Shown piece by piece: positions 105 to 20,582 of a DNA stretch of 33,521 bases; the stretch's first letter is position 1, and every line of letters begins with the position of its first letter. The stretch is taken from the NCBI GenBank assembly GCA_019686175.1, contig JADGHJ010000011.1, forward strand, positions 1-33,521, in the 5' to 3' direction. Position numbers and translations under genes: made by a program. The stretch is from Chloroflexota bacterium. Lineage in GTDB: Bacteria; Chloroflexota; UBA6077; JAJPHF01. Under the pieces are notes generated by a model. The model was not told the DNA's origin and ran no database searches. It worked only from the letters and a program-made list of their open reading frames with translations.

Positions 105-1052
105 CTACAGGCCGAGCAGCGCCCGCGCGTTCTCCCCCAGCACGGCCGCCTGCTCCTGCGGCGCCAGTCCCGCCTCGGCCACGTACTGCACACAGTGCCG
201 GTAGCGGTCGCCGACCGCGAACGGGAAATCCGAGCCCAGCAGCAGATGGTCGGCCCCCCACGCCTCGCGGGCCAGCCGCAGGGCGCCCGGGTGGTGGCTC
301 ACCGTGTCGTACCAGAACCGGCGCAGGTGGGTGCTGAGCGGGCCCTCGGCCTGGATGTCGGGCGAGCGCGGCGCGGCGCCGCCCCCGGTCGAGCCGTCGA
401 TCCGGCGCAGCAGGAACGGGAGCGTGCCGCCCAGGTGGGGCACGATCACCCGCAGGCGTGGGTAGCGGGTGGTGAGGCCCGAGCACACCAGGCGCAGCGC
501 GGCCACCGTGTCCTCGAACGGCGCGCCGACCACCCAGGGCAAGTTGTACTTGTCCATGCACGGCCCGCCGACCCCCACCGGGTGCAGGAACACCACCGCG
601 CCCCGCCGGTCCAGCTCGGCCCAGAACGGTTCGAACGCCGGCTCGTCGAGCGGGCGGCCTGCCACCGAGCAGCCGGTGGTGATCCCCACCATGCCAAGCG
701 AGTCGAGGCAGCGCGCCGCCTCGGCGATAGCCGCGTCCACATGCGGCAGGGGCACGCAGCCGAACGCCGCGAAGCGGCCCGGATACTGGCGCACGATATC
801 GGCGTAGAGGTCGTTGGCCAGCCGGGCGGCGGTTACCGCATCGGCCTCGCGCGCGGCGTACGGCTGGATGGCCGAGACGGACAGCACCTGCAGGTCCACC
901 TCCGCCGAGTCCATCAGCTCCACGATCTGGGGCAGCGTCAGCGGGGTGCCGGGCGCGCGGGTAGCCGGAACGACGCTGTCGCGGCCCAGGAGCCGCTCGG
1001 CGCAAGCGAGGTACTCGGGATGGAAGTAGTGCGCGTGCACGTCGATGCGCAT
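105..1052 (-). CDS. Amidohydrolase-2 family protein (ACMSD-like metal-dependent hydrolase/decarboxylase)
   Basis: N-terminal DVHAHYFHPEYL, HLGGTLPFLLRRID and GSDFPF motifs typical of amidohydrolase_2/ACMSD-like proteins. Confidence 0.85.
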   Translation of the reverse strand: MRIDVHAHYFHPEYLACAERLLGRDSVVPATRAPGTPLTLPQIVELMDSAEVDLQVLSVSAIQPYAAREADAVTAARLANDLYADIVRQYPGRFAAFGCVPLPHVDAAIAEAARCLDSLGMVGITTGCSVAGRPLDEPAFEPFWAELDRRGAVVFLHPVGVGGPCMDKYNLPWVVGAPFEDTVAALRLVCSGLTTRYPRLRVIVPHLGGTLPFLLRRIDGSTGGGAAPRSPDIQAEGPLSTHLRRFWYDTVSHHPGALRLAREAWGADHLLLGSDFPFAVGDRYRHCVQYVAEAGLAPQEQAAVLGENARALLGL

Positions 1053-1090
1053 GCTCGCTCCTCAGTCGGGCGGCCCCGTGTCGTACCTGA

Positions 1091-2158
1091 TCAGCTCTCC
1101 GCGCCGGACGAGGGCGGGGGGAGCAGCCCCGGAATGCCATTCAGCACGTAGTCCACCACGCGCTCGCCGGGCACGATGCGGTGGCTCAGCATGCCGATCC
1201 CCTCCACCTCGAAGGTGATTGTCTGGCCCACGCGCACCCAGCGGTGCGTGTCCATCGAGCAGCTCAGCCCGATCGTGCCCGTCCCCAGCACGTCGCCGGG
1301 ATACAACGTCTCGTTGTCCGACGCAAAGGCGACCAGGTGCTCGGCCAGGTAGTTGCGTCGGTGGCCCGTGTGCCCCTCGTACCACACCTCCCCGTCCACC
1401 GACAAGCGGACCCGCAGGTTGGCCTCGTCGATCTCGTCGGCCGTTACTAGGCACGGCCCCAGCACGTTGCACCAGTCCTTGGTCTTCGCCGGGCCGAAGT
1501 AGTCCGAGCGGGTGTACACGTCGCGCGCGCTACAGTCGATGAAGATCGTGTAGCCGGCGATGTACTGTTTGGCGTCCTCCACGCGGAGGTTGCGCCCCTC
1601 GCGCCCGATGACGATGCCGATCTCCAGCTCGCAGTCGAGCTGCTCGGTGAAATACGGGTAGGGGATCGGGTCGTCTGGCCCGATCACCGACGCGGGGTTG
1701 CCCTTGTAGTACGGGGGGTAGCGGTACCATTTGGGTGCCTTGGGCGGGATGCTGGGCGCCTGGGTCATGTGCTCCTCGAACACCGAGAAGTCGCGCAGCG
1801 AGCGCGGGCGCGGCAGCGGCGCGCGCAGGCGCACGTCGCGCCGGGCGTACACCAGCCGCGCGCCCTCGTGACCGCGCGGGTCGGGCTCGCCCGCAGCGAG
1901 CTGGCGGCGCACGAAGGCGAGCGCCTGCTCGGCGGCCTCGCGGGCCTTGTGAGCCCCCTCCAACCAGCCGATCATGTCGGGCGGCGTGCGCAGCGCCGCG
2001 AGCTGGCGCGGGGTGGGCTCGTCGGTCCCGGCGCGCAGATACGCCTCGTAGGCCGCGGTGAGGTCCACGATGCGGCCGTTGGGGTCACCGTCGAGCAGCG
2101 CGCCCAGCCGGTCGAATCGCCCCAGCGGCGTTTCCACGCTAAAGGTCACGAGCTTCAT
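1091..2158 (-). CDS. Fumarylacetoacetate hydrolase (FAH) family protein
   Basis: Start at MKLVTFSVETPLGRFDRLGALLDG; core LRDFSVFEEH, DCELEIGIVIGREGRN, YIAGYTIFIDCSARD, GDVLGTGTIG and EVEGIGMLSHRI motifs. Confidence 0.88.
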   Translation of the reverse strand: MKLVTFSVETPLGRFDRLGALLDGDPNGRIVDLTAAYEAYLRAGTDEPTPRQLAALRTPPDMIGWLEGAHKAREAAEQALAFVRRQLAAGEPDPRGHEGARLVYARRDVRLRAPLPRPRSLRDFSVFEEHMTQAPSIPPKAPKWYRYPPYYKGNPASVIGPDDPIPYPYFTEQLDCELEIGIVIGREGRNLRVEDAKQYIAGYTIFIDCSARDVYTRSDYFGPAKTKDWCNVLGPCLVTADEIDEANLRVRLSVDGEVWYEGHTGHRRNYLAEHLVAFASDNETLYPGDVLGTGTIGLSCSMDTHRWVRVGQTITFEVEGIGMLSHRIVPGERVVDYVLNGIPGLLPPPSSGAES

Positions 2159-11424: not shown

Positions 11425-13014
11425 CTAGGCGGCCGCGGCGGCGGGCTCGACCGGGTAGCCCGCGGCGCGCCAGCCGTCCAGGCCGCCTTCCAGTGCCGCC
11501 GCGTCCCATCCCAGCGCAATCAGCTTCTGCGCCGCCCGGGCGCTCGTGGCCTCGCGCGGTCAGGTGCACCAGGTAACCACGGGCCGGCGTGCCGCCTGCT
11601 CCACGGCCCAACGGGTGATCGCGTCGGGCGGCACTGGCACGCTGCCTGGAATCTGCACGGGATCGCGCGCCCGGGCCCCCGCGCTGCGCACATCGAGCAC
11701 CAGCGGCGGCGCCGGGCCGGCCAGCCGTGCTGCCAGCTCCGCCGGCGCGATCCGCGGCACCGCTTCCTCGGCGGGGCGGAACAGGTCGGCCGCGCTCTCC
11801 TCGCGCTCTTCGGCCAGCGTCTGTCGCGCCCTGCACCGTGCGTACCAAGTGGCGACGGGTGTGGCAGAGCAGCCGTGGACGACGACCGAGACGATGACGA
11901 CCACGCCGACCAGCGCCAGTAGCCGCTCGCCGTCAGGCAGCCCTGCCTGGACGGTCAGCAGGGCGAACAGTAGCGAGCTGAGCCCGCGGGGGCCGAACCA
12001 AGCGATCAGTACCCGACCGGTGGGGCTCAGCCGCGCGCGGGCGAGCACGAGGGCCAGGGCCAGCGGGCGGGCCACGACGATGGCGAACAGGGCGAGCAGC
12101 AGCGCCCGGCCCAGCGGCACCGTGCCCAGCAGCGTGGAGAGCACCGCGCCGAACAGGATGAAGGCGAGCAGCATCGCCATCTCGGCGGTGACCTCGCCGT
12201 ACTCCAGGAAGCAGTCGCACAGCTCGTGGTTGAGCACCGTGATGGCCGCCCCGGCGGCGAACGCGGCCAGGAAGCCGTCGCCGCCGACCGCGACCCCGCC
12301 TGTGTAGGCGGCCAGCACCAGCCCCAGGCCGTACAGCGCCTGGTACTCGCGCCGTACCCCGAGCGCAGCGTCGACCCGCATCATGAGCCAGGAGCCGATC
12401 GCCCCGACCACGAAGCCCACGGCGGGGCCGAGCAGGAACACCCGCGCCAGGAACACGGCCCATTCGCCGGGGGTGCCCGCCCGCGCTAGCGCTACCGCCA
12501 GCAGCACCAGTACCAGCGGCAGTACGACGACATCGTTCGTGCCCGCCTCGACGCTCAGCGCCTGGCGCACCGCCCGGGGCAGGCGCGGGTCGCGCACGAC
12601 GTCGCGCAGTACCACGGGATCGGTCGAGGCGAGGATGGCGCCCAGCAGCAGCGCGTGCACGAGCGGGAGCTGGAGGAGCAGCAGCGCGGCGCCCGCGACC
12701 AGCGCCGTGATCAGCAGGGTGCCGGGCCCCAGCGCCAGCACGGGGATGGGCCAGTCGCGACCCAGCTCGTCGAGCTGGAGCTTCACCGCATCGAGGAACA
12801 GCACCAGCGCCAGGTTGAGGATAGCGATCACCTCGAGCGTGCGGTCGTGGGCGTCGAGATGCAGCAGCCCGGCGCCGCTCGGGCCCAGCAGGAAGCCGAG
12901 GGCGAGGAAGATCATGGGGAACGACAGGGGCGCCCGGTCGACCAGGCCAGCGGCGAGCGCCGCGACGACGAGCACGAGCGCGGCGACGCCGAAGCCGGTC
13001 AAGAGGTCCGGCAT
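11425..13014 (-). CDS. NhaP-type Na+/H+ antiporter with C-terminal rhodanese domain; candidate selenoprotein (in-frame UGA at 11562-11560, proposed Sec485)
   Basis: CPA1-type membrane domain (FLLGPSGAGLLHL, GAILASTDPVVLRDVV, EAGTNDVVVLPLVL). Rhodanese domain from ~11754: RIAPAELAARL...LVLDVRSAGARARDPVQIPGSVPVPPDAI...VVTWCT[UGA]PREATSARAAQKLIALGWDAAALEGGLDGWRAAGYPVEPAAAAA, ending at TAG 11427-11425. The frame is unbroken apart from the UGA. Confidence 0.72.
11529..11543 (-). promoter_or_regulatory. Candidate bacterial SECIS hairpin GCGCC-CGGGC-GGCGC downstream of the UGA
   Basis: On the mRNA strand: UGA, 16 nt, 5-bp perfect stem GCGCC/GGCGC, 5-nt loop CGGGC with G at the second loop position. 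Confidence 0.4.
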
Positions 13015-13017
13015 GCC

Positions 13018-14154
13018 TTACCCCTCAACGCGGCCGATCTCGCTCAGCACCTCGTCGAGCAGGTCGAGGCCCCACAGCGCCTCCATGGCCGCTTCGCCAA
13101 CCGGCTCGGGCACCGCTCCGGCGCTACGGAAGAACTGGTAGCAGTAGCGAATCGACTCCACGTTCGGCTGGCCGTTGGGGTCGATCGCGGTCGGGTAGAT
13201 CTCGCGGATCGTGGCCACGTCGAGCCCGGTGTAGCGCGCCAGGGTGGCGGCGATCTGGTCGCGGTCGGCCTCGCTGGCGCGGCCCTGGTTCGCCGCGTGG
13301 TAGTCGCGGCTGGCGCGCAGGTACGCGCGAATGAACCCCTTGGCCAGCGGGCGGTTCTGGTACAGTGCCTGGGAGAACGCCACCACGTTGAGCGTGAGGC
13401 CCGGGTACATGGCGTCCTGCCCCATGACGAACACGCCCGTGCCCTGCTTGAGCGTGTGGGTCAGGAACGGCTCGGCGAACAGTCCGCCATCGATCGCCCC
13501 GTTGGCCAGCGCGGCCGGCATATCCGGAAACGGCAGCGGGGCGATGGCGATGTCGTCGTCCGGAATGCCAGCCCGTTCGAGGGCATAGTGCATCCCGCAG
13601 TAGTTCGTTGTCGCCTTGCCCGGGGGCGTGTTGACGAGGTTGAGCCCGCGTAGGTCGGCGAGCGTCCGGCCGCGGCCGGCGTCGTACAGGTCTTTGCGAA
13701 TGACCAGCGCGGTGAACGGGGCACCGGGCCGGAGGCTGCCCTGGTCGAGTACCGCTTTCAGAGAGACTCCGCGCGCGACCGCGTTCCAGAACGCCGCGTT
13801 CATCGACACGCCGCCCGTCTCCACCTGCCCCGTGGCCAGGGCGGGGATCGACTCCGAGTTGCTCGCGAAGCGCTCGAACTGGAGGTCGATGCCCTCTTGC
13901 AGGAAGTACCCGCGATCCACGGCCAGGTACGCGGCTACCCCACCCGAGGCGAACTGGGTGGCGAACCGCAGGCGCGTGAGGGCTGGCGCAGTGCTGGACG
14001 CTGGGGTGCTGCCGGCCGCAGTAGGACTCCGGCTAGCTGGCGTGCTACCCGCCGCAGGGGCGGCCGGCCCGCCCGACGCGGAGCAGCCGGCCAGGAGCAG
14101 GGTAGCGAGCAGGCCGCCTAGCAGGTGGGGGCGAGCCGTGGCGCGTGCAGGCAT
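13018..14154 (-). CDS. ABC transporter substrate-binding lipoprotein, NMT1-like (SBP3)
   Basis: MPARATARPHLLGGLLATLLLAGCSASGG lipobox; VAAYLAVDRGYFLQEGIDLQFERFASNSESIPALATGQVETGGVSMNAAFWNAVARG. Confidence 0.85.
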   Translation of the reverse strand: MPARATARPHLLGGLLATLLLAGCSASGGPAAPAAGSTPASRSPTAAGSTPASSTAPALTRLRFATQFASGGVAAYLAVDRGYFLQEGIDLQFERFASNSESIPALATGQVETGGVSMNAAFWNAVARGVSLKAVLDQGSLRPGAPFTALVIRKDLYDAGRGRTLADLRGLNLVNTPPGKATTNYCGMHYALERAGIPDDDIAIAPLPFPDMPAALANGAIDGGLFAEPFLTHTLKQGTGVFVMGQDAMYPGLTLNVVAFSQALYQNRPLAKGFIRAYLRASRDYHAANQGRASEADRDQIAATLARYTGLDVATIREIYPTAIDPNGQPNVESIRYCYQFFRSAGAVPEPVGEAAMEALWGLDLLDEVLSEIGRVEG

Positions 14155-14354
14155 GGACACCTCCTGACGACCGGCTATCAGCGCGGCGGCGGGACGGACA
14201 TGGGCTCTGGGCGATAGTCTAGCATCGCGGTCCTGGTGCGCTCTGTGACGCGCACAGTCTGCCAGGGGCGCGGCCTCGCTCCCCGAGAGCGGAACTGTCC
14301 CTCCGGCTAGCCCGCCATGGTCGCTAGCGAGTCGGAAAGGCCCAGTTGGCGCGC

Positions 14355-14383
14355 TTGGCACCTGCGGTCGCACACCGCATAAT
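14355..14383 (+). promoter_or_regulatory. Sigma70-type promoter TTGGCA-N17-CATAAT
   Basis: TTGGCA 14355-14360, 17-nt spacer, CATAAT 14378-14383, upstream of SBP4. Confidence 0.5.
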
Positions 14384-20021: not shown

Positions 20022-20582
20022 TCAATGGACGGCGATGGGCGTCGTGGGCAGCACCAGCTCGGGCCGGTAGACGCAGCGCACGCTGGTACCGCTAGCCGTC
20101 GCCAGGATGTTGCCGCCGTAGAGATGGAGCGAGACTGTCGGCCCGGCGAGCGGGTTCGTCACCTGGTGGATGTCGCCGGGCGGGACGATGGGCACCACCT
20201 CGCCCGCGGTCACCTCGTGGGTCTCGCCCACGCGCAGCCGCGGCGTGCCGTCGTGGTCGCACCACTCGTAGCGGGTCTCGCGCTCGCAGCCGCGGTACAC
20301 CCCGGCCAGCCCCCAGGCGATGTGATCGTGGATCGGCGTGCGCGCGCCCGGCCGCCACACTAGCGCCACTAGCGCGAGACGCCCGCTGGGACTGCTATAT
20401 AGCGCATGCTGCACGTAGCTGCCGGGGCCGAGCTGCTGCTGCTCGGGAGTGAGGAGGTCCGGCTCGGTTAGGAGCTGGCGGAACGGGAGCGCGAGCTGTG
20501 CCACCAGCCGCGTCCAGTCCGCTTCGCGCGCGGCCAGTCGTTCGGCCGCGCGGAGGAACTCCTGCAACGGCGCGCTTAGCAT
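20022..20582 (-). CDS. Cysteine dioxygenase-like cupin (thiol dioxygenase family)
   Basis: YVQHALYSSPSGRLALVALVWRPGARTPIHDHIAWGLAGVYRGCERETRY...VVPIVPPGDIHQVTN...SLHLYGGN. Confidence 0.78.
   Translation of the reverse strand: MLSAPLQEFLRAAERLAAREADWTRLVAQLALPFRQLLTEPDLLTPEQQQLGPGSYVQHALYSSPSGRLALVALVWRPGARTPIHDHIAWGLAGVYRGCERETRYEWCDHDGTPRLRVGETHEVTAGEVVPIVPPGDIHQVTNPLAGPTVSLHLYGGNILATASGTSVRCVYRPELVLPTTPIAVH

Follow-up and report, generated by a model that had tools for sequence, protein, structure and literature searches.

Does the in-frame TGA at positions 11562-11560 of a 33,521-nucleotide stretch of Chloroflexota DNA (contig JADGHJ010000011.1 of assembly GCA_019686175.1; hereafter the window) end an antiporter halfway through an appended rhodanese domain, or is it read as selenocysteine within a longer protein? 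We consider the second reading almost certain; it rests on several independent sequence signals, with no protein, 75Se or mass-spectrometry data.

A TGA codon inside a rhodanese domain fused to an antiporter

The minus-strand ORF 13014..11560 comprises 484 codons from its ATG to the TGA, and the same frame continues for 44 further codons to a TAG at 11427-11425, giving a read-through product of 529 residues in which U485 is the sole odd codon. A first-pass annotation, made from the sequence alone, had described this layout, and it held in every detail checked, the 44 residues after the TGA being identical. The interval it had assigned to the feature (11425-11754) covers the rhodanese part only; the full predicted selenoprotein gene, an antiporter-rhodanese fusion delimited by the ORF and its Pfam matches and sharing its architecture with the relatives, occupies 11425..13014 on the minus strand.

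Pfam searches of the read-through product revealed a CPA1/NhaP-type cation/proton antiporter domain at residues 16-390 (11845..12969, minus strand; PF00999, E-value 4.6e-40, 138 bits against a cut-off of 26.2), already complete upstream of the TGA. The rhodanese domain lies at residues 424-517 (11464..11745, minus strand; PF00581, E-value 2.3e-6, 28.4 bits against a gathering cut-off of 22.2), and its match spans the TGA, bearing out the earlier claim that the residues beyond this codon are the rest of the domain. According to the structure model (mean pLDDT 87.5, pTM 0.81), the 484-residue truncated product would end in the rhodanese loop, without the last helices and strand. We agree with the first-pass annotation that automated gene calling would cut the protein at residue 484, with loss of the redox site. 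One refinement concerns the loop itself: its first cysteine, the invariant Cys483 (11566..11568, minus strand), occupies the site where rhodaneses usually carry their catalytic Cys, in alignment with the loop Cys of PDB 3nhv, and codon 485 (11560..11562, minus strand), the predicted selenocysteine of a Cys-Thr-Sec motif, follows two residues on.

In the proposed reading, the ribosome would not stop at UGA 485; a downstream stem-loop (bacterial SECIS) would recruit SelB with Sec-tRNA(UCA), and selenocysteine would be inserted to give a rhodanese loop with Cys483-Thr-Sec485, in a domain that is presumably cytosolic.

Conservation of the TGA codon and of a downstream hairpin

Codon 485 was readable in 36 related genes, down to about 40% identity, and was TGA in 34 and TGC (Cys) in two, with no other codon found. 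This count includes the window and was made after removal of duplicates, some near-copies remaining (L013/L014, L078/L080/L081). Scanning a single genome per species yielded 23 loci, of which 19 were full-length relatives with a readable site, and further relatives, again down to about 40% identity, came from a search through 399 Chloroflexota genomes. The search queries bore Cys at the site and were thus not biased toward TGA. The compared genomes were mostly MAGs, and plasmid searches returned domain-level or distant relatives only. The Sec-form loop was CTU in 33 of the 34 genes and CAU in the remaining one (L076). Selenocysteine, not cysteine, is therefore the predicted usual state of the fused family, a second refinement of the initial proposal.

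A lone TGA in a draft MAG of 425 contigs would normally suggest a pseudogene or a sequencing error, that is, a Cys codon broken in this assembly only. Against this, 34 loci share the codon across many assemblies and families, one of them in a complete MAG chromosome (CP126532.1, L026), and the tail remains under coding constraint, with mean nucleotide differences of 0.30, 0.35 and 0.63 at the three codon positions of codons 498-524, beyond a conserved RNA hairpin described below. This explanation is all but excluded, and an error in the bases at 11562-11560 in particular is very unlikely because the TGA and the hairpin 3' of it are both conserved.

The two Cys-form genes come from an Anaerolineae MAG (L022) and a Nitriliruptoraceae MAG (L030). 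They lie apart in the tree, L022 pairing with a Sec gene (L009) with support of 98/93, a placement compatible with separate Sec-to-Cys changes.

Synonymous constraint was estimated by comparing observed codon identity among the Sec genes with that expected from each gene's own codon usage. The highest-scoring segment of the entire gene was codons 491-496, immediately 3' of the TGA (z 8.9), and away from this neighbourhood no segment exceeded z 1.9. These constrained positions fold into a hairpin, GCGCC-CGUGY-GGCGC, with a 5-bp stem and a 5-nt loop, which in the window reads GCGCC-CGGGC-GGCGC (11529..11543, minus strand; apical loop CGGGC at 11538-11534; -7.9 kcal/mol). From the TGA it is 16 nt to the start of the stem and 21 nt to the apical loop. 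Pairing was 100% across 33 distinct sequences, compared with 20-62% in slid controls, and included two fully compensatory pair changes, G-C to A-U in L076 and C-G to U-A in L077, both of which alter the encoded amino acids. The hairpin is lost in the Cys gene L022 (-1.1 kcal/mol versus -7.9 in the window), and its sequence is absent from the other Cys gene, L030.

The window hairpin satisfies the published requirements for a bacterial SECIS element (PMC13188914): a loop of 3-9 nt, a stem of 4-16 bp, a G within the first two nucleotides of the loop, a spacing of 16-37 nt and an MFE <= -7.5. It is nonetheless short (5 bp), neither the L076 nor the L077 hairpin reaches -7.5 kcal/mol on its own, and MFE folding of 48-nt segments gave no consistent structure, several sequences, that of the window included, pairing differently; the structure was settled from the alignment and not from these folds. 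Neither Rfam nor tRNA scans found a match within the window.

A subtler rival is a regulated stop, in which the gene would mainly produce a 484-residue antiporter with half a rhodanese, and the full-length form only when selenium is plentiful, making the codon a selenium switch. Sec-UGA codons are in general partly terminated, and no part of the antiporter domain lies beyond the TGA, both of which favour this possibility. On the other hand, the short product would end inside the rhodanese loop, and conservation does not drop after the TGA relative to the remainder of the protein. We regard a regulated stop as unlikely; it is compatible with selenocysteine insertion and departs from our reading solely on the question of a role for the truncated form.

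Selenocysteine decoding in the host and related genomes

Three of the four outcomes that the first-pass annotation had named as refuting selenocysteine at this site were checked: a genome without selA, selB, selD and tRNA-Sec, a TGA unique to this assembly, and a column that is not Cys in homologues. None was observed, the TGA being shared and both non-TGA homologues carrying TGC as described above, and none of the checks run refuted the proposed 529-residue protein with Sec485, which is supported. The host genome encodes a tRNA-Sec with anticodon TCA (73.3 bits; ARAGORN), on a contig other than that of the window, together with SelB (355.7 bits), SelA (574.5 bits) and SelD (385.3 bits), all over their cut-offs.

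Two further in-frame TGA codons were observed in this genome. Its SelD gene (L041, G000:C70:376-1296) carries one in the HGAGUACKL loop and is itself a predicted selenoprotein, and a second rhodanese (VIVYCHDSR-U-DLSPRAA; G000:C325:8374-8634, minus strand; locus L084, frame 874..1911, minus strand) has a UxxS motif that fits the known 'form 1' Sec rhodanese (PMC13188914).

In the first set of relatives checked, tRNA-Sec and/or SelA was found in every genome with a readable TGA site, SelA of one genome (G041) being split into two fragments, each under the cut-off. A second set comprised 21 antiporter-bearing Chloroflexota genomes, and SelB passed the cut-off in 18 of them; the exceptions were G267, with a fragment only, and G349 and G307, of 77-84% completeness. 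In two of these 21 genomes (G073 and G307) the antiporter copy was cut short and the codon-485 site could not be seen. Neither Cys-form genome had a tRNA-Sec or a SelB over the cut-off, their matches to the SelB model lying in open frames of near 400 residues, as expected for EF-Tu. In one of them, that of L022 (G042), SelA has been kept in the absence of tRNA-Sec and of SelB over the cut-off, alongside an antiporter with Cys; this looks like a loss of selenocysteine decoding.

These data also bear on a variant code or altered tRNA by which UGA would be decoded as Trp, Cys or Gly. We found no specific evidence in its favour. Other genes in the window end at TGA in the normal way, which rules out recoding of the genome as the explanation; in addition, tRNA-Sec(TCA), SelA, SelB and SelD are present, and the column is Cys in the non-TGA relatives. 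This alternative is very unlikely, and a plain stop at the TGA was rejected along with it and with the pseudogene.

Cysteine pairs, possible function and relation to known systems

The antiporter part adopts the NhaP fold in the structure model, its best PDB matches being PaNhaP and MjNhaP1 (E about 1e-11). N160-D161 is invariant across the aligned fusions; such an Asn-Asp pair is typical of CPA1 exchangers. Also invariant in all aligned fusions are Cys266 and Cys268, at the start of a transmembrane helix (12211..12219, minus strand), and most fusions contain exactly four Cys/Sec residues, namely Cys266/Cys268 and Cys483/Sec485. The Cys266-x-Cys268 motif is absent from PaNhaP and from the few unfused antiporters compared (Cnuibacter, Streptomyces); among unfused antiporters in genomes of the same class, only two distant ones were found, with no alignment over the motif. 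The model places four spans between Cys266-x-Cys268 and the C-terminal domain, and we therefore infer from this helix count that the two lie on the same side of the membrane.

The function that we favour, at slightly less than even confidence, is a redox coupling in which the Cys-Thr-Sec and Cys-x-Cys motifs tune exchange. It is favoured because Cys266-x-Cys268 is invariant in the fusions, absent from the compared unfused antiporters and, by inference, facing the same side as the rhodanese. Cys483/Sec485 would cycle between a reduced state and a selenenylsulfide or persulfide, and would exchange with Cys266-x-Cys268 at the cytosolic end of the transporter helix, so that the cytosolic thiol/sulfane-sulfur redox state would be coupled to cation/proton exchange. 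This proposal is inferred: there are no transport data, exchange activity and ion selectivity are themselves inferred, and no distance between the cysteines has been measured. In a bolder version, which we would not yet back over its alternatives, the protein would be a selenium-dependent redox-gated antiporter whose Cys-x-Sec rhodanese acts as a sensor of sulfane sulfur or thiol oxidation, switching exchange via the Cys-x-Cys motif.

The main functional rival is a membrane-tethered rhodanese for sulfur or selenium transfer or for detoxification (acting, for example, on sulfane sulfur, or binding metals and metalloids by Cys-x-Sec), with an ungated antiporter supplying ion or pH balance; its sulfurtransferase activity is likewise inferred. 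In its favour, the domain is also similar to ChrE, a rhodanese linked to chromate (46-51 bits), and several other Sec-containing transporters are linked to metal or metalloid resistance (PMC13188914). Against it, there is no conserved resistance or sulfur gene neighbourhood, and the invariant Cys266-x-Cys268 is left unexplained. We hold this rival to be somewhat less likely than the redox coupling, and well short of an even chance.

Gene neighbourhood offered no functional hint, none being conserved among 20 loci. In the window, an NMT1/THI5-like substrate-binding gene (13018-14373, minus strand) ends 3 nt before the antiporter start, and the two could possibly share a transcript; the pairing is not kept in relatives. 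A possible sulfur-metabolism gene at 20022-20582 (minus strand) showed a weak cysteine dioxygenase match (22.3 bits, cut-off 23). A cation antiporter gene that looks KefB-type, a name given by sequence reading, lies near the selenoprotein gene in three loci only (L013:1754-3466, L014:6635-8362 and L015:921-2645).

The Cys-x-Sec type of rhodanese, put forward in the first-pass annotation for this locus, is already known as a domain. Five forms of rhodanese are distinguished in an inventory of prokaryotic selenoproteins from 2026 (PMC13188914), of which form 3 is CxU (NF041203, rhodanese_LYCAU, 'rhodanese-like form 3'; example TKB26178.1) and has the same Cys-x-Sec loop. NF041203 was the best-scoring NCBIfam rhodanese model (E-value 1.4e-18; 66.7-71 bits, the latter for the isolated domain), under its curated cut-off of 115. 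It models a domain of 126 residues, whereas that of the window is fused to an antiporter; filing the protein under this model was rejected on score.

Other known systems share parts of the architecture. CPA1/NhaP antiporters (PaNhaP, 4cz8; MjNhaP1, 4czb; PRK05326 K+/H+ antiporters) have the fold, PF00999 and the invariant Asn-Asp in common with the window protein, which adds the C-terminal rhodanese and the invariant Cys-x-Cys and scores under the PRK05326 cut-offs. DedA-rhodanese fusions of Burkholderiales (e.g. L087) also join a membrane protein to a C-terminal rhodanese, of Y-C-x-C-P-N-E type, but the membrane domain is unrelated and the residue is Cys, not Sec. YgaP and other membrane-anchored rhodaneses tie the domain to the membrane without an ion antiporter and without Sec. 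The exchangers SLC9C1 and SOS1 were fold matches of the core; in both, the Na+/H+ exchanger core is followed by extensive regulatory regions at the C-terminus, but these exchangers are controlled through cyclic nucleotide or other cytosolic domains, with no redox rhodanese involved.

No antiporter or exchanger appears among the Sec transporters of the 2026 inventory, no fusion model was among the NCBIfam matches (June 2026), and the older selenoprotein inventories searched do not mention any antiporter; prior mention in PMC12013261 (Haft and Tolstoy 2025) or in the groundwater selenoproteome (Deng et al., cited in PMC13188914) is not excluded. The protein thus likely combines an already described Sec-rhodanese loop with a new membrane architecture, and represents an apparently unlisted selenoprotein family.

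As such, the fusion family would be one of few with selenocysteine in a transport protein. It is found in many Chloroflexota lineages, and Cys forms were found only in the two genomes in which selenocysteine decoding is missing. The paired Cys-x-Cys and Cys-x-Sec motifs provide a model, open to testing, of how redox state might control cation/proton exchange and, if the redox-gated antiporter proves true, it would constitute an unrecognised coupling of selenium/sulfur redox state to ion homeostasis.
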